This document shows, piece after piece, positions 9,334-19,968 of a stretch of DNA of 20,128 nucleotides; position 1 is the stretch's first letter, and each line of letters starts with the position of its first letter. The stretch is from a virus, in the IMG/VR virus record IMGVR_UViG_3300027865_000053, positions 1-20,128 of that record; one strand, written 5' to 3'. A program made the translations under genes and the position numbers. The notes under the pieces were generated by a model, which was given only the letters and a program-made list of their open reading frames with translations, searched no databases and was not told where the DNA came from.

Positions 9334-10695
9334 CTACGCTCGCGCCGCGAGAGTGACGACGGGCGCCACCTCCCAGCTATTGTTGAGGGTCAACGTCGTT
9401 CTCCACCACGGTTGCCCGTCGATGGTCTTGACGTAACGGAAGGCCGTTTCGTTGTAGTCGAAACGGATGTGAATACTGGTGTCGACGCTGGTGTACGTCG
9501 TCTCGCCGATCAGATAGTTAGGCCACGAGACGAGCGTCAGGTCGCCGACCGTGCCGATGGCTTTCGCATGCTCGGTATAGATCAGCGGACGACCGAGAAT
9601 GCGCTCGATGCCGTCTTCGGCGATCCGAACGAGCGCGACGGGTGCACCGCCAGTACCGACGTCGATGGTCAGCAGGTTGAGCTGCTCCATACAGCTCAGG
9701 GACGCGACCCACACAGCACCCGAGTACTCCTCAGGTCGCATGTGAGAGCGCATCTTGAGCACGTTCGACGTGACGATCGTCGCCGCCGCTTGACCGGTTT
9801 CCTTCGCCTGCGAGTAGGTCGCCGGAGCGTTTAGCACACCCAACGGCTCACCGGCACCCTTGCCGTTCATAAACAGGCCCATCTCTTTCCAGACGATGGC
9901 ATCGCGGAACTGCTGTCCGATGAAGCTGCCCATCGACGGAACGTGGTGAATCTGGTTGTCGGTCAAATAGGCCAAGCCGGTCAGCATCGTGGGCTTGATC
10001 TCGATCTGCTCAAATTCACCGCGGGCCGACGTCATCTGCGCCCGTTCCTTTTGCAGAAAGACCGCGATACCGCCGTACAGATTGACTGTACGCGTGGTAT
10101 CGGTCACCGCGTTGATGACCATCATCGTGGAATTCAGGGGCAAGAGCTGGGCGCCGTTGGCACGAACGAAATCGGCTTCAACACCCTTTGTGAGAATATC
10201 CGAGCGATATTCCGGGGGGATCAGATAGCCACCGATGCTGTCTTCAACCGTCGTGTACTCGTCCGTTCCGACGGCCTTGGTGACCGGTGGGGGCGCCTTG
10301 CAATAGTCCATCCGCTTCGACGGACTGGCGCCGGGTGTACCGGCCAGGCGGATATCCTCGAAGAAGTCTCCGACGCGGGAATACCCCCTCTTGGGGTCGT
10401 CGTCGATCAGATCCTTGGTTTGAATTCGGACGGGTCGGGCGTTGCCCGATTTGCCGGCCGCCTTCGCGACGGCTGCGGTTACGACCTCTGTGACCTGTTC
10501 AAGAGTGACGCCGGCGGCGCCCGTCTCGCCTTCTACGGCCTTTACGCTTCGCTTCTCGTCCTCATCGCACAGCTCGGCGATCTTCGCCTCCACCAGATCG
10601 GTGGCGGTCTTGGCGTCAACCGTCAGTAGCTGTCCGATGGGATATTCGGTCCCATCGTAGCTCCACTTCTGGAGCAGACGGATAGTCTTGTCCAT
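9334..10695 (-). CDS. Major capsid protein, HK97 family
   Basis: 453 residues. Residues about 142-200 contain the family start of the mature domain (VGTDEYTTVEDSIGGYLIPP, then EYRSDIL). An EFEQIEIKPTMLTGLAYLTD strand and QFRDAIVWKEMGLFMNGKGAGEPLGVLN follow, the latter being the conserved spine helix and 'G.G.G.P.G' segment. A late ILGRPLIYTEHAKAIG and a closing IRFDYNETAFRYVKTIDGQPWW also fit. The N-terminal part (1 to about 135) should be a delta-like scaffold removed by the neighbouring protease. Residues 1-45 (LLQKWSYDGTEYPIGQLLTV) look like a small separate domain fused to it. The ATG has a GGGA stretch 9 bases upstream. Confidence 0.92.
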   Translation of the reverse strand: MDKTIRLLQKWSYDGTEYPIGQLLTVDAKTATDLVEAKIAELCDEDEKRSVKAVEGETGAAGVTLEQVTEVVTAAVAKAAGKSGNARPVRIQTKDLIDDDPKRGYSRVGDFFEDIRLAGTPGASPSKRMDYCKAPPPVTKAVGTDEYTTVEDSIGGYLIPPEYRSDILTKGVEADFVRANGAQLLPLNSTMMVINAVTDTTRTVNLYGGIAVFLQKERAQMTSARGEFEQIEIKPTMLTGLAYLTDNQIHHVPSMGSFIGQQFRDAIVWKEMGLFMNGKGAGEPLGVLNAPATYSQAKETGQAAATIVTSNVLKMRSHMRPEEYSGAVWVASLSCMEQLNLLTIDVGTGGAPVALVRIAEDGIERILGRPLIYTEHAKAIGTVGDLTLVSWPNYLIGETTYTSVDTSIHIRFDYNETAFRYVKTIDGQPWWRTTLTLNNSWEVAPVVTLAARA

Positions 10696-10813: not shown

Positions 10814-11518
10814 CTAGGGCCGGCCACAAGCCAGCCGTACTTCACGATCGACCACACGCGATACTTCGCCGACTGAAAGCACTCGTCGTTTGACCGACCG
10901 GACGGGACACACCTTGCGTATAGGCGTTACCCGTCGCTCTTCATTCTGTGTCTCATCCCCCCCGCTGTCAAGTTCGATCCACGGGCGTATCGTCTTGAAG
11001 CGCCCCTCGCCGTAAGCCTTGTTCATCGCATCTGGGTTGGCCGGCACCGAACACGCGGAGTATTCGATGACTTCGGCCGACGTTATGAGGCTCCGGGCGC
11101 CCGCCCAGTCGGGGCGTTTCTTAAGATCCGCCGTCTTGAGTTCGCGGCGCATGATCGACCGCCAGTCCATGCCGAGCGACCAGCCTTTCAGGAAACCGCC
11201 GGCATACAACTGAAAGACGTCCTCCGCCATATCGGTCTCGGCAAACCGCGTCTTGGCGATCACCGCGCCCTTTGTTACTTGCTGCCACAGGCTCTTGCCG
11301 ACGACGGTCCACATATCGTGCATGAACAGGACGATCGGATTCTTCTTAAAGCGGCCGAACTTCAGCCCCGATGTAATAACTACCTCCTGATCGCTGTCGA
11401 CACGGTCGGTGGTGATCTTGGCTTTGATCGTGCGTTCCTGCTCGTTCACGTCCAGCACTTCGCCGTCTTCGGCCTTCGTGAAAATCGGCAATCGCGTTAT
11501 CGTCGGATGATCAGGCAT
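10814..11518 (-). CDS. Prohead protease, HK97 gp4 type
   Basis: 234 residues; GGAGG lies 6 bases before the ATG. The opening TIKAKITTDRVDSDQEVV resembles the family start. Candidate catalytic residues are His67 (in VLFMHD), Ser114 (in KGWSLGM) and Glu149 or Glu152 (in SAEVIEYSACSVPANP). The last segment is the familiar 'E..E.S.VSVPANP' motif. These serine proteases remove the capsid delta domain during head maturation. The C-terminal about 50 residues are basic (RRVTPIRKVCPVRSVKRRV) and may be a scaffold-binding or self-cleaved tail. Confidence 0.9.
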   Translation of the reverse strand: MPDHPTITRLPIFTKAEDGEVLDVNEQERTIKAKITTDRVDSDQEVVITSGLKFGRFKKNPIVLFMHDMWTVVGKSLWQQVTKGAVIAKTRFAETDMAEDVFQLYAGGFLKGWSLGMDWRSIMRRELKTADLKKRPDWAGARSLITSAEVIEYSACSVPANPDAMNKAYGEGRFKTIRPWIELDSGGDETQNEERRVTPIRKVCPVRSVKRRVLSVGEVSRVVDREVRLACGRP

Positions 11519-11519
11519 A

Positions 11520-14117
11520 TCAGTCCTCCACTACCGGGACAATCGTGCACGTGCAGTTGGGATGCAGCGTAGGATGCAGAACGTCTCCCATTTTCGCCGT
11601 GTACGTTCCACCATCGACACCGCGGATAGAGGCGCCGTCCTTCAGGAACGGCTGCCCGAGCTTCGCCCTCTTACCGTTCATTGCGGTACAGAACTCACAG
11701 GCGTCGACCGATGCCAGCCACTCGTTCTCTTCGATGCCGGCCTTGACCCAGGTTTCCTGCACTCCGGCATTGAGCGCCCGGTTCAACTCCGTGCGGGCGA
11801 TGCGTTCGGCCGAACTGTCCTTTTTCTCGCCGTAGACGGCGGCTACGCGCTTACTGATCCCGTCGACGTTCTCTCCAGCGTTCAGCCCTTCGCTGATGGC
11901 GTCAAACACATCGTCGCCCGTTACATCGACGACGGTAGAGGCGAACCCGTCGGTCAATCGTCGGACGTGCTTTTCCACCTGATCGGGTGGCAGGATCAAC
12001 GACACCTCGAATGCCACACCCGCGTCTCCCAAATCCCGTATGCCCAGCGCGCCACCCTTCTCGAATGCGCGGACCATGAAGGGATAAGCGACGTCCGAGA
12101 CCTTCTCAGTCCACTCGCTGCGCTCAAACAACACGGCCAGGAGCTTTTCCTTGACCAGCCCTGCGACATCCTCTGCACTTTCCAGAACCTTGACCAGGCT
12201 CTCCCTGACGCTTGCGCTGAACTGATCGAGCAGCGACTTGAGACGACCGATAAACGCCTGGTCTTTCGAGTCGTCGTCGTCCATCTGATCGAGGTTCACT
12301 TTCGTCGCGCTCACGTCGGGTCGGTCTCTCAGCAGAGTGTCGACGCCATTTTCGTCACCACACTGACACTCTTTCCCGTCGACTGTGTCACCGCCCTCGC
12401 CAGATCCGCCATCGTCGCCCGGACCGGCTGACTTGGTGGTATCGTCTCCGGTATCGTCGCTTCCTCCGGTTTCTTTTTCTTTTTCTTGCTCTTGCTGCCC
12501 TTGGTTCGTTCCATCGTCGTCACCTCCATCTATGGCCTCAATGTCCTCTTCATCCGGGTCTACGATACCCACGGTACCGCTTGTGGCCGGCTTGATTTCT
12601 GCGATGGGCGCGATTGAATCCTCACCCAAAAGTTCCGCTATTTTCTCGCGGAGGATGTTGGCCAGGGCCTCATCCTTCATATCGACCGCCTGTTTGAGCG
12701 AACTCATCAATTCCCCAACCTTGAACTGTGCCTCGGTGTTGTCGCCCACGCTCTCACCGTCGACCATCGGCCCGTCCGGGAACTGGGCACCGGCAATAGG
12801 CTCCGACGGCCGGCGCACGCCACCGGGGATGAACGGCTCGTCTCCCCAGTCGACGGCCTCGCGACCGAGTTCCGCACGGGCTTCGTTGGGCTCCAGAAGA
12901 GGAATGCCACCGCTCAGCTTGACCAGACGTTCGGCATCGGCATCCACGTCTTCGGGCACCGGATTATCGAATGCGACAAACCAGGGCGCACGTCTGCGCA
13001 AGCCCACTTCACGCTCGGACTCCCCGCCGTACATCGGCATCATCGTCGTGTTGAGCTGCTCGCAGATAAGGCGCTGCAACGGCTTGATCGTGTTTCGCGT
13101 CCACAACTGCAAACCGTGGCGCATGTTATTGAACGTGATTCCGTCGACGCTAATCACGTTCATCGGCACGCCGAAACCTGCGGCGATCTCCTCGAGGACG
13201 ACCTTACGCCCCTTATCGAACTGAAGATCTTTCGCCGTCAACATCAACTTCTCAACATGCAGATCGAACGGGGCGACCGCGAACTTGCCGCGATTGCGCC
13301 AGCCGCCGTAGGTGTTCGTCCAGTCCGCCTGAAGCTGCTTCTGTTGCGGTTCGCTGATATCACCCTTGGGAGCAATCAGAAGGTCGGGCACCGCGAAGTG
13401 AGTGAAGACCGCGTTTTCCCACTCGCGCATCCGCAGATTCGTTTCCGCCGCCGTGAGTATCCCGCGCAGAGGAGCCATGCCACTGACCATATCCAGCGGA
13501 GAGGGCTTGCGGAAATGAACGATCTCGTCCGATGGGAAGTCGGTCGTCCGACCACCGAAGCGCAGTTGATATTTGTCGATCACATTCTCGGGACCGAGGA
13601 CGGGCCAGACAAACTGTGCGGGCAACGGCCATATCTCGATCGGCATGCCCAGCCCGTTATACGTCAGGTGCCAGTAGGCGTTGCCCTCGAGCAGCAGGTA
13701 CGTCGTGGTCAGCCACCACAGGCCGGAGATGTCGAGAATGGGATTGACGTAGTCCAGAACATCGAGAAACGGATGGTCTTCGATCTCGACCGCCTCGCGC
13801 GTCGTGCGCCGCGGGCTGATGTCCTTCAGGTACAGTCGCTGTTTACTCGAGAGAGCTTTCGTCGTCTGGGCCACCTCTTTGTCCGTGCTGTAGAGGCGCA
13901 GAGGGTGTTGACTGACTTCCGTGGCGTTGCGATCGACGCAGATGTAGATCCAGGAGGCGAAGCGTTCGATCAACCGCCGGCTGTCGAGCAGCGGAGAAAT
14001 GTAGGGCCGGCCGCGCCCATATCCGGTCGCCACATCAACAATGCGACGATCTTTCGCCCGCTTCTGTCCATTACGGGCATCCGATCGAACTATGCCGTCC
14101 AAAACGCGCAAGAGCAC
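11520..14117 (-). CDS. Portal protein fused to a MuF-like minor head domain
   Basis: 865 residues from GTG, 9 bases after the terminase stop; the ATG at 14127 leads to a short dead frame. Residues about 44-430 are an HK97-type portal: RRLIERFASWIYICVDRNA, the LLEGNAYWHL segment, FPSDEIVHFRKPSP, then EEIAAGFGVPMNVISVDG. Residues about 518-620 are an acidic low-complexity linker with a CQC pair. Residues about 770-865 are a MuF domain: ERIARTELNRALNAG, then WLASVDACEFCTAMNGK, and HPNCTC near the end. The Cys residues (CEFC, CTC) with the HPN motif may bind metal. Portal forms the packaging ring and MuF proteins are minor internal head proteins; fusions of the two are known in phages. No clear ribosome binding site is seen. 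Confidence 0.9.
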   Translation of the reverse strand: MLLRVLDGIVRSDARNGQKRAKDRRIVDVATGYGRGRPYISPLLDSRRLIERFASWIYICVDRNATEVSQHPLRLYSTDKEVAQTTKALSSKQRLYLKDISPRRTTREAVEIEDHPFLDVLDYVNPILDISGLWWLTTTYLLLEGNAYWHLTYNGLGMPIEIWPLPAQFVWPVLGPENVIDKYQLRFGGRTTDFPSDEIVHFRKPSPLDMVSGMAPLRGILTAAETNLRMREWENAVFTHFAVPDLLIAPKGDISEPQQKQLQADWTNTYGGWRNRGKFAVAPFDLHVEKLMLTAKDLQFDKGRKVVLEEIAAGFGVPMNVISVDGITFNNMRHGLQLWTRNTIKPLQRLICEQLNTTMMPMYGGESEREVGLRRRAPWFVAFDNPVPEDVDADAERLVKLSGGIPLLEPNEARAELGREAVDWGDEPFIPGGVRRPSEPIAGAQFPDGPMVDGESVGDNTEAQFKVGELMSSLKQAVDMKDEALANILREKIAELLGEDSIAPIAEIKPATSGTVGIVDPDEEDIEAIDGGDDDGTNQGQQEQEKEKETGGSDDTGDDTTKSAGPGDDGGSGEGGDTVDGKECQCGDENGVDTLLRDRPDVSATKVNLDQMDDDDSKDQAFIGRLKSLLDQFSASVRESLVKVLESAEDVAGLVKEKLLAVLFERSEWTEKVSDVAYPFMVRAFEKGGALGIRDLGDAGVAFEVSLILPPDQVEKHVRRLTDGFASTVVDVTGDDVFDAISEGLNAGENVDGISKRVAAVYGEKKDSSAERIARTELNRALNAGVQETWVKAGIEENEWLASVDACEFCTAMNGKRAKLGQPFLKDGASIRGVDGGTYTAKMGDVLHPTLHPNCTCTIVPVVED

Positions 14118-14126
14118 CCTCGCTCA

Positions 14127-15494
14127 TCAGTTACCGGACCACCAGCGATCGTCCGATACGTCTACGGTGACCGGGCGCCGAATATTAGCCATCGCCTCGA
14201 ACTCTTGCAAGTACAGTTCCGCAGGACTCGCCTGGCCGGCCACCAGGAGACGACCGATCTTACCCGACGCATCGACCTCCATCATGGCATACCGATCGGC
14301 ATCACACGCATCGTCCTTTTTCTTCGACGGCGTCTCGTTTATACAGCCGGGCTTCCAGGAGTAGGACATATACTCCTCAGTTCCCGCCAGCCCGGTCTCA
14401 AACGTCAGGCGCGGGCGACCGTCCACCACATCGGTCAAAGCCGACCCGACACAGCGGATACCGGGTATCACGTCGTTGACCGCCGGCTTGGCAGACAGCC
14501 CCCGGCGCCGCAACTCCTCGATGATATCGGGCGCCGCCGGATCTACGACGAAACTGATTCCCTGATACTGCAGGGCGACCTCAACACACATCTCGGTTAA
14601 ATCCGAGCGCGTGATGTTCGGCTCGTAATACTCAGCCACAACGTGCGACATCGGACGCTTCAGGCCTTGGCGTCGGACGGCATGCACCCGGACGGACGTC
14701 CTATGGGTAAACCCGTAGTCAACGCCCGCAACGTGATACTCCCACGGGCCCGGATCGTGATACTCATGGACCCCCCGTGCGAACTGCGGGTAGATCGCAC
14801 CTTCGAAGGCAGCCCAGATTCCGTAGAGGTACCGCAGCTTCGCCGCACCCGGCAGATGGGCGAGGTTCAGCTCAATGTAATCCTTGGGCAGATGCCAGTT
14901 ATCCAGGCTCGAGGTTTTGATCAGATGCCGAACGTGCGACGGGTGCTTCTCCTCAAAGAAGAGCCGATGCAGGAAATGCGTAGGCGGGCCCGGATTCGTC
15001 GCCGTCGCCATCGTCCGCTTATTCTTCGATCCGTCGGGCATCGTGAATTCGAGAGAGCAACGGGTGGTCAGCATGTTCCACTCGGGCTCATCCAGCTCGA
15101 TCCCCTCATCGATGCAAAGGTCCGACAGCGTGAGCGAGCCCACCTTTTCCGGGTTGTCACAGCCGAAGGGGATGATCTCGCCACCGCCGTTGAGTGCGAT
15201 TCGCTCCTTGCCCGGGCTCTGCAGGAACGTGTAGCTCCCAGCCGGCAGCACCGGAGGAAGGTCGCCGTCGGCCTCCAGCAGCGTCCGCAACGTCGTCTGC
15301 TTCAATGCTACCAGCGTCTTGCGACAGAGGCCCACCTTAGACTTGGGGGGCGTCGCCTTGCGGATCGCCCGATAACACAGCGCTCGCGACTTACCGGCCC
15401 GCACCGCCCCGCTGTAGAGGATCTGAAGAGCGTCGCTCATCACGAACTCGTACTGCTTGGGCATCAGAGCGATGGATTGGTAGGGGGTGGGCAT
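14127..15494 (-). CDS. terL: Terminase large subunit
   Basis: 455 residues, the motor-nuclease that packages DNA into the prohead. The ATPase part has a Walker A at residues 29-36 (GAVRAGKS), a Walker B with LCIDE at 126-130 and a TATNPGP coupling segment at 164-170. The nuclease part has Asp259 (in GVDYG), Asp318 (in VVDP) and Asp398 (in DACDADRYAM), the usual acidic triad. The ATG is weakly supported because no ribosome binding site is seen, but an in-frame TGA lies 9 bases upstream of it. The small subunit is not adjacent: a plus-strand cassette and several small genes lie between this gene and the best candidate at 18544-19047. Confidence 0.95.
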   Translation of the reverse strand: MPTPYQSIALMPKQYEFVMSDALQILYSGAVRAGKSRALCYRAIRKATPPKSKVGLCRKTLVALKQTTLRTLLEADGDLPPVLPAGSYTFLQSPGKERIALNGGGEIIPFGCDNPEKVGSLTLSDLCIDEGIELDEPEWNMLTTRCSLEFTMPDGSKNKRTMATATNPGPPTHFLHRLFFEEKHPSHVRHLIKTSSLDNWHLPKDYIELNLAHLPGAAKLRYLYGIWAAFEGAIYPQFARGVHEYHDPGPWEYHVAGVDYGFTHRTSVRVHAVRRQGLKRPMSHVVAEYYEPNITRSDLTEMCVEVALQYQGISFVVDPAAPDIIEELRRRGLSAKPAVNDVIPGIRCVGSALTDVVDGRPRLTFETGLAGTEEYMSYSWKPGCINETPSKKKDDACDADRYAMMEVDASGKIGRLLVAGQASPAELYLQEFEAMANIRRPVTVDVSDDRWWSGN

Positions 15495-15563
15495 TGTCTT
15501 ACGTCATCTCATTGAGCCAAAGGCTCCCTTGTTATGCCCAGTCAACCCTAGTCGTTGCGTGGG
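15495..15563 (-). other. Gap upstream of terL
   Basis: 69 bases with no ORF. A 5-bp inverted repeat (GAGCC-AAA-GGCTC) is present without a T-run. I see no clear promoter. Confidence 0.35.
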
Positions 15564-15782
15564 TTATCGGACCTCCAAATCGGCGTCGCGAAACCACTCC
15601 ACTTTGACCTCGCCTGTTTCCAATACGTACTCTATCCGACAAGACTGGGTGAAGTCCCGATCGATCCACAGGCCGGTCACGATCCCGAGCCGATCCGAGA
15701 CCTTTATCGTGACCTGCTGCTCAAGAGCGAACGTAAACTGTACGCCGAAGCCCAAGGCAGGGTCGGTAGTCGCCGTTTCCAT
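15564..15782 (-). CDS. Small phage protein of the VTG-EWF-LE type
   Basis: 72 residues from the ATG at 15782, which has AAGGA 8 bases upstream; a start at 15812 is less likely. The sequence reads as a small beta barrel: FTFALEQQVTIKVSDRLGIV, then TGLWIDRD, RIEYVLETG and VKVEWFRDADLEV. A family with the pattern 'F.LG..V..KVT...G.VTG...Y.....EWF....LE' is frequent in phage genomes, and this fits in order and length. Function unknown. A 6-bp inverted repeat (GTTGAG/CTCAAC, 3-base loop) is 16 bases upstream of the start and may be an operator. Confidence 0.75.
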   Translation of the reverse strand: METATTDPALGFGVQFTFALEQQVTIKVSDRLGIVTGLWIDRDFTQSCRIEYVLETGEVKVEWFRDADLEVR

Positions 15783-15872
15783 AATCACTGTCCTTTCTGT
15801 TGAGTTCCTCAACGTCCGATATTATCCGCGTTCCAATCGCCCTACGCCCGAGATCGCGGCGGTGTCCTAAGT

Positions 15873-16127
15873 TCAAGGCAATAGGTCGGCCATTGTCCAG
15901 GGCTGCGAAACCAAACCGGCAGCAACGGCGGGCACCGTCCGTAAACTCTGGTGCGTCCGGACAAAGTTAAACGCCGCAAAGTGCAGTTGAAGCGCCGCAA
16001 GCAGGTTTTCCCATTTCTTGCTGAAGCAGAGCGTCAGCCTGGCTAGTCGTTTCGTATGCGTCCGCAGTCCGGCATTTTGCGCCTCAACGTGCGATGTGCA
16101 AGCCCGATCACCGCGAGGCGAGCCCGT
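15873..16127 (-). pseudogene. C-terminal remnant of a DDE transposase (IS1-like)
   Basis: Read on the minus strand, the frame from about 16127 carries GSPRGDRACTSHVEAQN, then LTLCFSKKWENL, LHFAAFNFVRTHQSL and PAVAAGLVSQPWTM. This is the familiar end of transposases with 'STSYVERQN...LT.AFSKK.EN....ALHF..YNFCR.H..LR.TPA.AAG'. The Glu in HVEAQN would be the last residue of the DDE triad. The first two Asp and the N-terminal DNA-binding domain are missing, so the element is broken. The open frame continues to 16238, but the part beyond about 16127 does not resemble the family. No terminal inverted repeats were found. The IS family name is uncertain. Confidence 0.75.
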
Positions 16128-16151
16128 GTGCATAAGCAAGAGGCCGAAACC

Positions 16152-16319
16152 ATGAGTTTCTGGACCTGCGTTCAGTGCGGCTGCCCGTCGGATTACGACT
16201 TCTGCCCAGAGTGCGAAGCGGCCGTTATCGCAGCTCACGAGTCTGCGCAGACAGAACGCGAGCGATACGACGAGGATCTAGAACGACAACGACAGGGTCA
16301 ATACGACCCTAGAGAATAA
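16152..16319 (+). CDS. Small zinc-ribbon protein
   Basis: 55 residues from the ATG at 16152, with AGAGG 8 bases upstream; upstream ATGs in frame have no ribosome binding site. CVQCGCPSDYDFCPEC holds two Cys pairs (CxxC and CxxC), a zinc ribbon or zinc finger. A charged helix rich in Glu/Arg (HESAQTERERYDEDLERQRQ) follows. It is the first gene of a plus-strand cassette on the opposite strand to the virion genes, and starts about 25 bases from the transposase remnant. Role unknown; a small regulator or adaptor would fit. Confidence 0.75.
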   Translation: MSFWTCVQCGCPSDYDFCPECEAAVIAAHESAQTERERYDEDLERQRQGQYDPRE

Positions 16320-16324
16320 CAAAA

Positions 16325-16350
16325 CCCCGCGCGACTGGCGTTACGCGGGG
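16325..16350 (-). terminator. Hairpin between the zinc-ribbon gene and the next gene
   Basis: A 7-bp perfect stem (CCCCGCG with CGCGGGG). On the minus strand it is followed by TTTTGTTATT, so it would terminate minus-strand transcripts. On the plus strand it has no T-run. It separates two plus-strand genes and is more likely an insulator against minus-strand transcription. Confidence 0.5.
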
Positions 16351-16382
16351 CGTATCAACACCTAAATGGGAGGCATTGACAT

Positions 16383-16697
16383 ATGAACAGCATACCAAAA
16401 ACTCGCCCGATGATCTACTGTCCCGGACCGGACAAGTGGCTGACGCTCGGCCAGTACGTTCAAGTAGTCCGAACGGCAAAGGCAAACCTTGACCGCGAAT
16501 TCAAGCAGGGCATCACCTGCTGGTGGCCATGTACCGGCCGCGACGTCGTCAAGCAATTTGTCGGCGGTGTCGAAGATCGCATCAACCAAGCGCGCCCCTA
16601 CCTGGAACGCATGATCGACTTCACCCACCCGTCACCCCAGCGTGAGGCCGTTGTTGACGGGCTCATAGCCGATCTGAGAAAGGACGGTGAACAATGA
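16383..16697 (+). CDS. Hypothetical phage protein
   Basis: 104 residues; GGAGG lies 9 bases before the ATG, a clear start. The sequence has a MIYCPGPDKWLTLGQYVQVV segment (residues 10-29), a helical LDREFKQG, then ITCWWPCTGRDVVKQFVGGVEDRINQ and a final helix. I do not recognise the family. It has Cys residues in CPGP and WWPCTG, no membrane segment and a soluble look. The stop overlaps the next start by 4 bases (ATGA). Confidence 0.75.
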   Translation: MNSIPKTRPMIYCPGPDKWLTLGQYVQVVRTAKANLDREFKQGITCWWPCTGRDVVKQFVGGVEDRINQARPYLERMIDFTHPSPQREAVVDGLIADLRKDGEQ

Positions 16698-16891
16698 CAA
16701 CCAGCACAAAACCCAGACTTCAAGCGGGCACAATTACTATGATGTGCGGAAACGGCACGATCAAGCGGGCGGGCCACGCATGCCGTGGCCTTGGGCTCAG
16801 TCGCGCGGCAAGTGCAATGCCCGAATTGTCGAATGGCTGCGTCAATTGGGCCGCCATCGCCGAAGCAGAGAAGCCCAATGCCCAGCCCTGA
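16694..16891 (+). CDS. Small hypothetical protein
   Basis: 65 residues from an ATG that overlaps the stop of the upstream gene (ATGA), so translation is probably coupled. The sequence (TITMMCGNGTIKRAGHACRG, then AASAMPELSNGCVNW) is not recognised. A 16687 start in another frame would give 70 residues with less natural composition. Moderate confidence that it is expressed. Confidence 0.5.
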   Translation: MTTSTKPRLQAGTITMMCGNGTIKRAGHACRGLGLSRAASAMPELSNGCVNWAAIAEAEKPNAQP

Positions 16892-17087
16892 AGCCCTGAG
16901 GCGTCAAGCCCGACGTAAGAGCATCAAAGTCGATCAGACGACACACATGCTGCTACACGTCGTGGCCGTCGCGCACGAGATGACGATCGGCACGCTGATT
17001 TGGGAGTTGGTCCAGGCGGAAGCCGAGCGCCTCAAAGAAGATGCGCGAGAGGCCGCTTGCTCTGCGACGAAAAAAGCCGTAAACTGA
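16878..17087 (+). CDS. Ribbon-helix-helix-like small protein
   Basis: 69 residues from the ATG at 16878; it overlaps the end of the upstream gene by 14 bases. A basic N-terminus (ALRRQARRKS) precedes a strand (SIKVDQT), helix 1 (HMLLHVVAVAHEM) and helix 2 (TIGTLIWELVQAEAERL), then a charged tail. The strand-helix-helix pattern and the turn at HEMTIGT fit the RHH/CopG DNA-binding fold. As the last gene of the plus-strand cassette it may regulate the cassette or another phage promoter. An antitoxin role is possible, but no toxin-like neighbour is seen. Confidence 0.65.
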   Translation: MPSPEALRRQARRKSIKVDQTTHMLLHVVAVAHEMTIGTLIWELVQAEAERLKEDAREAACSATKKAVN

Positions 17088-17126
17088 ACTTGAAGGTGTC
17101 CTAGCCGGCTTATTCGTCTAGGTGCC

Positions 17127-17156
17127 GCCCCGTGGCAGTTCGCGCTGCCTCGGGGC
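17127..17156. repeat. Hairpin 1 of three, imperfect inverted repeat
   Basis: GCCCCG then GGCAG pair with CTGCC then CGGGGC, with one T-T mismatch and a 6-base loop (TTCGCG). No T-run follows on either strand. It starts 39 bases after the RHH-like gene. Confidence 0.55.
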
Positions 17157-17168
17157 TCATTGAAAACT

Positions 17169-17185
17169 CGGCCCGTGTCGGGCCG
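17169..17185. repeat. Hairpin 2 of three, perfect inverted repeat
   Basis: CGGCCCG and CGGGCCG form a 7-bp stem with a TGT loop. It lies 12 bases after hairpin 1 and 23 bases before hairpin 3. Confidence 0.55.
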
Positions 17186-17202
17186 CCGCACGGACGTATG
17201 TA

Positions 17203-17448
17203 TCAGGGGCCAGCGGAATCGTCCGCTGGCTCTTTTGCGTTTTCGCCTAATCTTGACGCGGGCATAACGGAAGCCCCCAAAGTAGAACGCTTGGATCGGC
17301 CCGCCAGTTTCGCCCGCATCTCTTGGAGCGTCGCCAACCTAATCCGCAAGTCCCGCATGGCCCCTTCGGCCTTTGCGATTTCCGTGTCAATCTCTGATGA
17401 TGTGACCCGCGAAAAAGAGCTAATTTGCGAACTGGCCCCGGCCTGCAA
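17203..17448 (-). CDS. Small coiled-coil protein, start uncertain
   Basis: 81 residues if translation starts at the TTG at 17448, immediately after an in-frame TGA. The stretch SEIDTEIAKAEGAMRDLRIR followed by LATLQEMRAKLAG has heptad-like spacing of a coiled coil. The end is polar. The next Met (residue 31) would cut the coil, so coding probably extends upstream of it. No good ribosome binding site precedes the TTG. The frame is the same as that of the upstream gene, so either TTG initiation by termination-reinitiation, TGA readthrough, or a broken longer gene is possible. Confidence 0.5.
   Translation of the reverse strand: MQAGASSQISSFSRVTSSEIDTEIAKAEGAMRDLRIRLATLQEMRAKLAGRSKRSTLGASVMPASRLGENAKEPADDSAGP
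17209..17236 (+). terminator. Rho-independent terminator of the plus-strand cassette
   Basis: A perfect 9-bp stem (GCCAGCGGA with TCCGCTGGC), ATCG loop, followed by TCTTTTGCGTTTT. This is a good plus-strand terminator, third in a row of hairpins. It overlaps the last codons of the minus-strand gene 17203-17448, so those genes converge here. Confidence 0.75.
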
Positions 17449-17736
17449 TCAGCGAGTTGGGTGACTGCAACCACAACCCGTACCGTCAAAGCGGCCCGAG
17501 AGGCGGTGGAAGTAATAATCACGGCCGTTGACCGAAATCAGGGTGAATCTCGGCGTGGTGCGAATCTTTAGGGATTGCCCGCTGAGATCATCCTCGATTT
17601 CGCAATTGCGGACTGCGCCGGCTAAGCCGGCCCGATTACAGAGTGCGCCGAACGCCGCTACCGCGCGAGAACGCCAGATTTGCCAACGCGTGGCGCCGAA
17701 CTCGGCAGGTCTCGGCATCTGTAGAATCACGCTCAT
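17449..17736 (-). CDS. Hypothetical protein ending in a CGC motif
   Basis: 95 residues from the ATG at 17736 (MSVILQMPRPAEF). GGAG lies only 2 bases before it, which is close. An upstream ATG (17811) would read through the terminator hairpin, so I prefer 17736. A basic amphipathic stretch (WQIWRSRAVAAFGALCNRAG), an acid segment (CEIEDDLSG), a strand pair and an end with GTGCGCSHPTR are visible. The family is not recognised. It is in the same frame as the gene after the TGA. Confidence 0.55.
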   Translation of the reverse strand: MSVILQMPRPAEFGATRWQIWRSRAVAAFGALCNRAGLAGAVRNCEIEDDLSGQSLKIRTTPRFTLISVNGRDYYFHRLSGRFDGTGCGCSHPTR

Positions 17737-17763
17737 TGCTCCATTGTATCGGCGATTCAGGTC

Positions 17764-17791
17764 AAAAAAGGACACCGCCGCATCCGGCGGT
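17764..17791 (-). terminator. Rho-independent terminator after the 63-residue gene
   Basis: On the minus strand a perfect 7-bp stem (ACCGCCG with CGGCGGT, 4-base loop) is followed by GTCCTTTTTTGACC. It begins 12 bases after the stop at 17804. Any downstream expression would be by readthrough or from another promoter. Confidence 0.75.
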
Positions 17792-17803
17792 CGGAATCTT
17801 GTA

Positions 17804-17995
17804 CTAGACATCCTTGGCCTCTACCGTCCTTGCAGCGGCTACGGCTCTCAACTCGGCACACGTGTAACCGGCCATCAACAACTCACCATCGGCACGCTGC
17901 TCGTACGTGCTGACGCCCTCACAGTGGTCAAACCACCAACCAGTAGGCGACCCATCGCCATTGAAGCCACCAACGTGAACAATGTGTGCTTTCAT
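17804..17995 (-). CDS. Small hypothetical protein
   Basis: 63 residues. The sequence begins MKAHIVHVGGFNGDGSPTGW, then WFDHCEGVSTYEQRADG and a C-terminal helix (AELRAVAAARTVEAKDV). The mix of aromatic, acidic and glycine residues looks like a real protein. No strong ribosome binding site is seen, but the terminator just after the stop supports it. The family is unknown. Confidence 0.6.
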   Translation of the reverse strand: MKAHIVHVGGFNGDGSPTGWWFDHCEGVSTYEQRADGELLMAGYTCAELRAVAAARTVEAKDV

Positions 17996-18230
17996 GTCAG
18001 TTCAACTAGCACTGCAACACCCCAAATGGGTTGGGGAATATGAGGGAGGGTAAGGCGCCCCACCACAGGGCGCGAAAGTATGGGACCCAATTGAGGCCCC
18101 CCATGCCCCCGCACGACCGATAATCAATCTTATGTTGCACGGCCCGAATGACGTAAGTGCTTGGAACATAGGGACTTAGCGCTTTTGTTCCACGTGAAAC
18201 ATCACACACCGCCGGTGCTTGGTGTGATTG
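17996..18230. other. Non-coding stretch with inverted repeats and a parS-like site
   Basis: No ORF here is convincing; a minus-strand frame at 18006-18209 (67 residues) has an odd composition and no ribosome binding site. The stretch has a CCCCAA/TTGGGG hairpin at 18019-18035, a parS match at 18186-18201, and a CACACC/GGTGTG inverted repeat at about 18205-18226. It could hold a promoter region for the 63-residue gene or a small RNA. Confidence 0.4.
18186..18201. promoter_or_regulatory. parS: parS-like ParB binding site
   Basis: The plus strand reads TGTTCCACGTGAAACA, an exact match to the bacterial chromosomal parS consensus TGTTNCACGTGAAACA. ParB clamps load at such sites and spread over the DNA. 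No parA or parB gene is in this window. Chance occurrence of 15 fixed positions in 20 kb is very unlikely. Whether the site is functional here is unknown. Confidence 0.75.
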
Positions 18231-18554
18231 TTACACATTTCCGCCAGTTCTCGCAGCCTCACTGGACCTCAGATGGTCGCTCGGTTGGCGCGTAGCGGCT
18301 GCAGCGCCTCTTATGCCTCTCCCATGTCCTTGCGTCGCCTCCACCAGCACACCAGATACATCGTACACACCATAACCAATGCGGTGCCGAGCATGACGAG
18401 TCCCGTGTAGATGCAGAGTACTTGGGTTGCCCTTAGCGTGAGCAATAGCACTGCCGAGCTGCCGACTGATCTTTCCACAGTTGGAGCTTCCGCTCGTCTC
18501 AAACCACCTCTGAGCCAGCCTGCACGCGGCCAGTAGCACCTCTTCACTGGTCAT
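18231..18554 (-). CDS. Small hypothetical protein, C-terminal half doubtful
   Basis: 107 residues from the ATG at 18554, which has AGGAGG 9 bases upstream; the start overlaps the stop of the upstream gene by about 11 bases. The first 43 residues (MTSEEVLLAACRLAQRWFET, then CGKISRQLGSAIAHAKGN) look natural. The later part (GRGIRGAAAATRQPSDHLRS) looks like shadow sequence. In the same place another frame encodes a hydrophobic membrane segment, so the true gene may be a frameshifted or overlapping arrangement. Confidence 0.55.
   Translation of the reverse strand: MTSEEVLLAACRLAQRWFETSGSSNCGKISRQLGSAIAHAKGNPSTLHLHGTRHARHRIGYGVYDVSGVLVEATQGHGRGIRGAAAATRQPSDHLRSSEAARTGGNV
18311..18450 (-). CDS. 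Overlapping ORF with a membrane segment
   Basis: In the +1 frame relative to the gene at 18231-18554, an ORF that begins nominally with GTG at 18547 contains a 20-residue hydrophobic segment (QVLCIYTGLVMLGTALVMVC), then TMYLVCWWRRRKDMGEA with a basic flank. This fits one transmembrane helix with the C-terminus in the cytoplasm. No good start with a ribosome binding site lies just before it, so the start given is approximate. It may be a small holin- or spanin-like partner, the C-terminal end of a frameshifted gene, or chance. Confidence 0.4.
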
Positions 18555-19047
18555 CCTTCGTCGCCTCCTCAATCACCTCTGCGTCGATCGCCTGCTGTAC
18601 CTCAGGATCGTTCATCGCGCTGAGGTCGGGCGGCTTCCATCCGTCTGGTGGCTCTTGCGGATGGCAGACTAGGACTACTTGGGTGATGACATGGTCAACC
18701 TTCAGATCCTTGGGCTCGAGCTGGGCACGTATCTTAAGCACCTCAAGCGGGTTCTTGTCGATAGCCGTCTTGATCAGGGATGTGCCAGTCTGTTGTTCGT
18801 GGGCAGCGAGTATGACGTCGATCTGATCTCTGAGCGAAGGCCGATCCCCAATCTTGCGACGGCTACCCTTCTTGGACTGCTTGTTTCCTTCGGCGAAGTG
18901 CCCGTTGGCCTTGCGGTCCTTGGCGAGTCGGTCCCTGGTCAGACAATAGGCGTCCAGCGGCTGATCGGCCTTACGCATCGCCTGCTCCAGGAGCGAAGGC
19001 CGACTCTCTACCGTGTTAATACAGTCACTCTGTACGTCTTCACTCAT
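18544..19047 (-). CDS. Possible terminase small subunit (DUF5681-like)
   Basis: 167 residues from the ATG at 19047, overlapping the upstream stop by 8 bases; an ATG at 19110 is less likely. A basic N-terminal half has RDRLAKDRKANGHFAEGNKQ, a 'G.F..GN....G' pattern followed by KKGSRRKIGDRPSLRDQI, as in DUF5681-type phage proteins. A helical middle and a short acidic C-terminus follow. DUF5681-like proteins often lie upstream of the large terminase and some are small-subunit candidates. Here about 3 kb separates the two. Assignment is moderate to weak. Confidence 0.5.
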   Translation of the reverse strand: MSEDVQSDCINTVESRPSLLEQAMRKADQPLDAYCLTRDRLAKDRKANGHFAEGNKQSKKGSRRKIGDRPSLRDQIDVILAAHEQQTGTSLIKTAIDKNPLEVLKIRAQLEPKDLKVDHVITQVVLVCHPQEPPDGWKPPDLSAMNDPEVQQAIDAEVIEEATKDDQ

Positions 19048-19243
19048 TAGTGCTAACCCGCCGAAGAACGCCTTGGGCCTCCGAATCTGCAATGAGGCCA
19101 GGACACTCACGTTCTACGGACGCCCGTGCTTCAGGGTCAACGAGACTCCCGCCATCACCTGCGACGTCGGTGTCCTTGCCCGCCCAGAAGATCCCCACGA
19201 CCGCAGCTACCGCCCGTTGAAAGAAATTACGTCGGCTTATCAC
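19040..19243 (-). CDS. Small protein with a twin-arginine-like N-terminus
   Basis: 68 residues from a GTG at 19243; GGAG lies 9 bases upstream, which decides the start over ATGs at 19279, 19297 and 19327 that would overlap the neighbour by more. The N-terminus is MISRRNFFQRAVAAVVGIFW (with the GTG as Met). It has S-R-R-x-F-F followed by a hydrophobic stretch, the layout of a Tat signal or an N-terminal membrane anchor. The rest is polar. It overlaps the upstream gene by 17 bases and the downstream start by 8. A secreted or membrane-anchored phage accessory protein is inferred. Confidence 0.6.
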   Translation of the reverse strand: MISRRNFFQRAVAAVVGIFWAGKDTDVAGDGGSLVDPEARASVERECPGLIADSEAQGVLRRVSTNE

Positions 19244-19529
19244 TGGTTTGCTCCACGTCGCAACTGTAATACTGCCCATGCCTGCGATCGGTGCCATTCT
19301 CGGGCGATTGGCTCTCAACCGGCTCAAATCCCTGAAAGACGCCCCTGACTTCAGGCAATTTGCATTCCAGTACTATCTCTGCCAAGGATTCGCTCTCAAG
19401 CTTCAAACAGAGCCTGTCATCACACAGGCCATCAAATGCCTGCGCAATGGCTACGATTCTCACGTGATCCGGCAAGCCAAGCGCATGCCTCACAAAATCG
19501 AACTGAACTCGCATGATCGCTTGGCCCAT
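19227..19529 (-). CDS. Hypothetical phage protein, paralogue of the upstream gene
   Basis: 100 residues. The start (MGQAIMRVQFDFVRHALGLP, then DHVRIVAIAQAF) aligns with the upstream 145-residue protein through R..FD....ALGLPD-VRI. The strand LCLKLESESLAE also aligns with IYLEIEGGQLPE. The C-terminal part differs. The ribosome binding region and ATG are identical to those of the upstream gene over 15 bases. Short phage proteins with an ALGLPD motif are known to me as hypothetical. Function unknown. Confidence 0.75.
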   Translation of the reverse strand: MGQAIMRVQFDFVRHALGLPDHVRIVAIAQAFDGLCDDRLCLKLESESLAEIVLECKLPEVRGVFQGFEPVESQSPENGTDRRHGQYYSCDVEQTSDKPT

Positions 19530-19541
19530 ATCACTCCCTCA
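19527..19541 (-). repeat. Duplicated translation start region, copy 2
   Basis: On the minus strand it reads TGAGGGAGTGATATG, ending in the start codon of the 100-residue gene. It is identical to copy 1 at 19966-19980, and the similarity continues a few bases upstream (AAAGGGTTT versus GAAGGGGTTG). Confidence 0.8.
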
Positions 19542-19968
19542 AAACCCTTTCAACGTCATTTCCAAGCTCGGGATCAGTCGGGCCGCGCTTGCGCATGCCC
19601 ACTTCCGCCAACAATTCACAGATTTTCTCCATCTTCGCAGCATTGCCGTAGAACGTATGGGCCAGCGTCCCCACGGCGCCCCGCACGAGCAGGACGGTGT
19701 TCTGCGCAGCCATCTCGGCATATTGTTCCTGCCTCTGCTGCGCGTGGGGTTTGCCGTCTTCAGTCGGCGTTAGTAGCTCACTATCCAGTCTCAGCACGTT
19801 CATGCAGCAGTTATCACCAAGGGCTTCCGGCAACTGTCCGCCCTCAATCTCAAGATAGATTGCGTGTTCGCCAAGCTTTAGCGTGGCGCTCATAATCCGC
19901 ACGTCATCCGGCAGACCGAGCGCCTTCGCCAGTTCATCAAACCCGATTCGCAGCAGGGCGCATCTCAT
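19531..19968 (-). CDS. Hypothetical phage protein, paralogue of the downstream gene
   Basis: 145 residues; the ATG overlaps the CsrA-like stop by 4 bases (ATGA). The N-terminal 70 residues contain LRIGFDELAKALGLPDDVRI, then EHAIYLEIEGGQLPEAL, shared with the next gene. Residues about 75-145 (EQYAEMAAQNTVLLVRGAVG, then KMEKICELLAEVGMRK) form a helical extra domain that the paralogue lacks. No enzyme motif is seen. Confidence 0.75.
   Translation of the reverse strand: MRCALLRIGFDELAKALGLPDDVRIMSATLKLGEHAIYLEIEGGQLPEALGDNCCMNVLRLDSELLTPTEDGKPHAQQRQEQYAEMAAQNTVLLVRGAVGTLAHTFYGNAAKMEKICELLAEVGMRKRGPTDPELGNDVERVLRE

Follow-up and report, generated by a model that had tools for sequence, protein, structure and literature searches.

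Genes and features at the locus

The window, by which we mean the whole 20,128-base virus record analysed here, comes from an uncharacterised tailed phage. Profile searches showed that its late block is encoded on the minus strand. From left to right, this block includes a capsid protein (9334-10695), a head protease (10814-11518), a single 865-aa ORF in which a portal is joined to a MuF-like head morphogenesis domain (11520-14117), and the large terminase subunit TerL (14127-15494; phrog_2, E 2e-31), together with neck and tail genes. TerL is only 27-28% identical to its best matches among named phages, and the phage therefore belongs to a remote lineage. No close TerL was found in Zixibacteria genomes. 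A probable small terminase (TerS) gene lies at 18544-19110 on the minus strand. It is so named from its position and appearance only, as profile searches gave no credible family match for it.

Between TerL and the probable TerS gene, four ORFs are found on the plus strand at 16152-17087, oriented against the TerL, portal, protease, capsid and tail genes, as the original prediction had described. It had also stated that this cassette splits the terminase gene from its probable small subunit; the position proved correct, with TerS itself recognised as above. ORF1 (16152-16319, 55 aa) contains a zinc-ribbon-like CxxC-x9-CxxC motif and is of uncertain coding status. ORF2 (16383-16697, 104 aa) has no recognisable family. 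ORF3 (16694-16891, 65 aa), likewise of uncertain coding status, overlaps the ORF2 stop in an ATGA, and ORF4 (16878-17087, 69 aa) is ribbon-helix-helix (RHH)-like. ORF2, ORF3 and ORF4 thus overlap in an operon-like manner. The GC content of the cassette is the same as that of the phage, and the plus strand is A-rich between 16001 and 17000 (AT skew 0.15-0.21).

Two further observations were made near the ends of the window. At the right, two adjacent small minus-strand genes, 19227-19529 and 19531-19968, are paralogues with 30% identity over 93 aa (E 1e-7) and have an identical 15-base stretch in common at their starts; their sequences indicate a tandem duplication. At the left end, the minus-strand ORF 3-635 encodes cysteine-rich GACC...DGSC repeats, which we take to resemble Planctomycetes proteins; no plasmid match was found for it.

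Coding potential of the cassette ORFs

ORF length was not informative, since an ATG-initiated ORF of at least 100 aa occurred in 39% of dinucleotide shuffles of 16000-17250. A codon model was trained on 17 virion genes, in which a score of 0.15 bits/codon was reached by 75% of true 70-codon pieces and by none of 43 spurious plus-strand ORFs. The scores were 0.15 bits/codon for ORF2 and 0.17 for ORF4 in its short form. ORF3 scored −0.04, the highest of the six frames yet not supportive, and ORF1 scored −0.20, lower than any true gene piece. A self-trained gene caller called ORF2 and ORF4 and left uncalled the other plus-strand ORFs to the right of TerL.

Each cassette gene had been predicted to possess a good ribosome binding site or an overlap. 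This was outstandingly so for ORF2 (Shine-Dalgarno GGGAGG, −10.2 kcal/mol) and ORF3 (−13.2 kcal/mol, the strongest in the window), whose sites match or beat any tested in the window; only 4% of background ATGs have a site of −7.5 kcal/mol or better. The site of ORF1 is moderate (−5.8 kcal/mol). At ATG 16878, which is preceded by AGAGAAG, ORF4 lacks a good site of its own, but its first codons overlap the last ones of ORF3. The listed start of ORF4, GTG 16785, is probably too long, as its 31 extra codons show poor codon usage, and ATG 16878 is probably the better start.

Taken together, codon usage, the self-trained calls and the ribosome sites indicate that at least two of the cassette ORFs are genes. 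We infer that these are ORF2 and ORF4, by codon usage and, for ORF2, by its ribosome site, while ORF1 and ORF3 are possible genes. ORF1 may be a foreign gene or no gene; its zinc-ribbon motif arose in 6 of 500 shuffled regions.

Similarity searches with the cassette proteins

The profile matches of ORF4 were weak yet agreed in pointing to RHH and segregation proteins, all of them under the curated cut-offs where such are set. These matches were to phrog_4113 (E 0.0018), NCBIfam PrgO (E 0.0066, 16.7 bits against a cut-off of 100), which is an RHH-type protein, and Pfam RHH_10 (E 0.059, 14.1 bits against a cut-off of 27), so that no RHH profile matched ORF4 above its cut-off. A single-sequence fold prediction gave one long helix and not an RHH, by a method poorly suited to an obligate dimer. 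No homologue of ORF4 was found among named phages, in an exact-word scan of viral contigs or in 16 whole records with a related TerL. The exact-word scans detect close relatives only, and proteins that are small and divergent easily escape detection. The codon score and the NCBIfam, RHH_10, named-phage and word-scan searches for ORF4 were run from 16881, one codon inside ATG 16878.

The same three collections, and plasmids as well, yielded no homologue of ORF2. A search of 132 Zixibacteria genomes gave matches at E 0.004-0.006, as expected by chance, and these were discarded; the predicted fold of ORF2 was not usable (mean pLDDT 53.5). ORF3 matched viral contig L031 (E 8e-4), but antisense to the capsid-like gene of that contig (5120-6079), and the match was rejected. 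A PADLOC search found no credible defence-system match.

Terminators, hairpins and promoters

The strong plus-strand terminator that had been predicted at the end of the cassette was confirmed at 17205-17234. It has a 13-pair stem and a TTTT tail, and its folding (z −6.0) was equalled by none of 200 shuffles. It overlaps the end of the minus-strand ORF 17203-17448, which itself has no codon support. Two successive plus-strand hairpins lie ahead of it at 17095-17156 (z −2.4 for the fold of 17085-17175). Three consecutive hairpins thus extend on the plus strand from ORF4 through the end of the terminator (17095-17234), with z −4.7 for 17095-17240 as a whole. The series may form a structured RNA; it gave no Rfam match above the threshold.

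On the minus strand, the predicted hairpin with a T-run inside the cassette was likewise present. It occupies 16325-16350, is followed by TTTTGTTATT, and resembles a terminator for leftward (late) transcription (−21.4 kcal/mol, z −2.3, with 7 of 200 shuffles as good). A weak terminator-like hairpin facing the cassette was found by pattern scan at 17169-17185, with a fold no better than shuffles in context. Another with a six-T run lies at 17774-17791, near the 5′ end of the minus-strand ORF 17449-17811, whose start may really be at 17736. The hairpin at 17774-17791 suggests that the interval from TerS to TerL is divided into small, separate transcription units. A candidate Rfam toxic sRNA at 16317-16381 (minus) was rejected, as it scored 23.6 bits where the cut-off is 50.

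Judged from their sequences, the three minus-strand hairpins might cut late transcription ahead of TerL. If any of them works, it would end transcripts from the TerS side before TerL, so that TerL and the head genes would need a promoter of their own left of 16320 or antitermination. Terminators within phage late operons are known, and their role is unclear (PMC8022706).

No sigma-70-like promoter was found in 15000-18500, though the host may use promoters of another type. The best relaxed plus-strand match (9/12) is at 16376 and overlaps the start of ORF2.

Transposase remnant at the left border

The left border of the cassette had been predicted to be a transposase remnant, and our analysis confirms this. 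The minus-strand segment 15876-16127 encodes the 83 C-terminal residues of an IS1-type transposase whose 5′ part is missing. By tblastn, it corresponds to residues 190-272 of a 273-aa Zixibacteria transposase (51% identity, E 8e-22); it also matched Pfam DDE_Tnp_IS1 (E 2.7e-4), below the curated cut-off. The match ends at about 16127, 24 bases ahead of ORF1, and the remaining parts of the transposase were not found in other frames nearby. Compared with IS1-type transposases from a Zixibacteria MAG, Mesorhizobium and Acidiphilium, the remnant represents the C-terminal third, is 41-51% identical and keeps a single frame open to its stop, whereas the N-terminal two thirds are absent.

A complete IS1-family element has an entire transposase and terminal inverted repeats, neither of which was found with the remnant. 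Neither the window nor the surroundings of the intact transposase relatives showed matching element ends. A 13-bp inverted repeat (15856-15868 and 17769-17781) was rejected as near chance, occurring in 5% of shuffles, with a second repeat of equal length elsewhere in the window. The inverted repeats flanking the intact relatives, of just 8-9 bp, were also at chance level.

Comparison with related phages

Single-protein searches of viral contigs with TerL, capsid and portal found no close relatives. Pairwise and family alignments of TerL gave ten viral contigs with 35-47% identity. The nearest, L043 (47%), starts inside TerL and is thus uninformative on the cassette region. Six others, with TerL 35-42% identical, have sequence upstream of TerL (L011, L012, L013, L045, L046 and L048). 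All six have upstream of TerL a TerS-like gene, labelled so from our reading of the sequences and not from a family match, along with between zero and four further small genes; these genes are co-directional with TerL and mostly overlap by a few bases. The gap between TerS and TerL is below about 1.2 kb in these six, against 3.05 kb here. No convincing opposite-strand genes were found upstream of TerL in them; L013, L045 and L048 do have opposite-strand calls, but these are either weak or placed over co-directional genes.

The cassette is therefore not carried at this place by all relatives, being absent from these six, and this absence fits an insertion as far as sequences at such a distance can show. 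No empty site alignable with the window was found, the relatives being distant and several of them fragments, and comparison with related phages thus gave absence of the cassette but not its exact borders. In L015, L016, L018, L030 and L041, which are more distant (TerL below 29%), genes on the opposite strand are present upstream of TerL.

Interpretation of the cassette

We consider it probable, at roughly 0.6, that this is a moron-type accessory cassette inserted in the packaging region between the probable TerS and TerL. This moron-type reading, put forward in the original prediction, is the best supported one through the opposite strand, the terminator, the broken transposase at the border and the lack of a counterpart in six distant relatives; no promoter was found. 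The codon usage and ribosome sites and the A-richness of the plus strand in 16001-17000 also speak for it, and the missing codon signal of ORF1 and ORF3, the one-helix fold of ORF4, the unchanged GC content and the opposite-strand genes of more distant phages speak against it. Transcription of the cassette would run rightward, opposite to the late genes, as a single unit ending at 17205-17234, a terminator recognised by sequence and folding. Judging by the broken transposase at its left edge, the block may have arrived with, or beside, an IS-type element.

The ORFs might instead be ordinary core regulatory genes of the lineage, in which case the packaging region would switch strand for a small regulator operon and hold no recent insert. 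The codon usage of ORF2 and ORF4 and the GC content, which match the phage, and the opposite-strand genes of the five more distant phages agree with this, but the truncated transposase at the border and the absence from the six nearer relatives make it unlikely. A decaying insertion scar, in which a transposase remnant and passenger DNA have left ORFs that are mostly non-functional now, would account for the broken transposase, for the missing coding signal in ORF1 and ORF3 and for ORF lengths within chance. We think it quite unlikely, as codon bias is retained in ORF2 and ORF4, ORF2 and ORF3 retain the best ribosome sites, and the strong terminator is intact. Antitoxins often have an RHH fold, as do Arc and Mnt, and the overlap of ORF2, ORF3 and ORF4 as one operon would suit a toxin-antitoxin or superinfection module in which ORF4, the antitoxin or repressor, is paired with ORF2 or ORF3; with no match to a toxin or defence family and a weak RHH match in ORF4, such a module appears highly improbable.

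Returning to the inserted accessory cassette, small inserts at such places often carry superinfection, regulatory or anti-defence genes, and a role of one of these kinds had been proposed. Regulation is slightly favoured here by the weak RHH match of ORF4, and no particular sign of defence or counter-defence was seen. Given this match, the lack of a usable ORF2 model and the absence of a credible PADLOC match, the most likely form of the cassette is an accessory unit in which a small DNA-binding protein would act on the cassette itself or on a nearby promoter. ORF4, if it is an RHH DNA-binding protein, may repress locally, either the cassette or phage promoters close by, and ORF2 may be an effector with an unspecified action. 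A more elaborate form is a regulatory moron of an uncharacterised lineage, in which an RHH repressor, two small proteins and the minus-strand terminators uncouple the expression of TerL and the head genes from that of TerS, providing a switch directed at superinfecting phages or at late expression; this we regard as very unlikely.

The finding would contribute one accessory cassette for whose proteins the searches returned no relatives, and its phage has less than 50% TerL identity to the closest relatives recovered here. ORF2 and ORF4 would be sensible choices to study first.

Like known morons, the cassette looks inserted when set against relatives, at the low resolution of six phages with TerL 35-42% identical, and has its own transcription terminator at 17205-17234; a sigma-70-like promoter of its own was not found in 15000-18500, and its borders are not set by close relatives. 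A comparable layout is found in the P22-like immI region or 'ant moron', where the RHH repressors Arc and Mnt control an antirepressor (PMC2629481, PMC8022706). The 'ant moron' lies between genes 16 and 9, whereas the present cassette lies between the terminase genes. An antirepressor is present in the former and none was recognised by profile searches in the latter, whose weakly RHH-like ORF4 is a putative repressor. The likeness drawn is one of layout rather than of sequence. The cassette most likely fits the established pattern of phage morons, being of an ordinary kind with unfamiliar genes.
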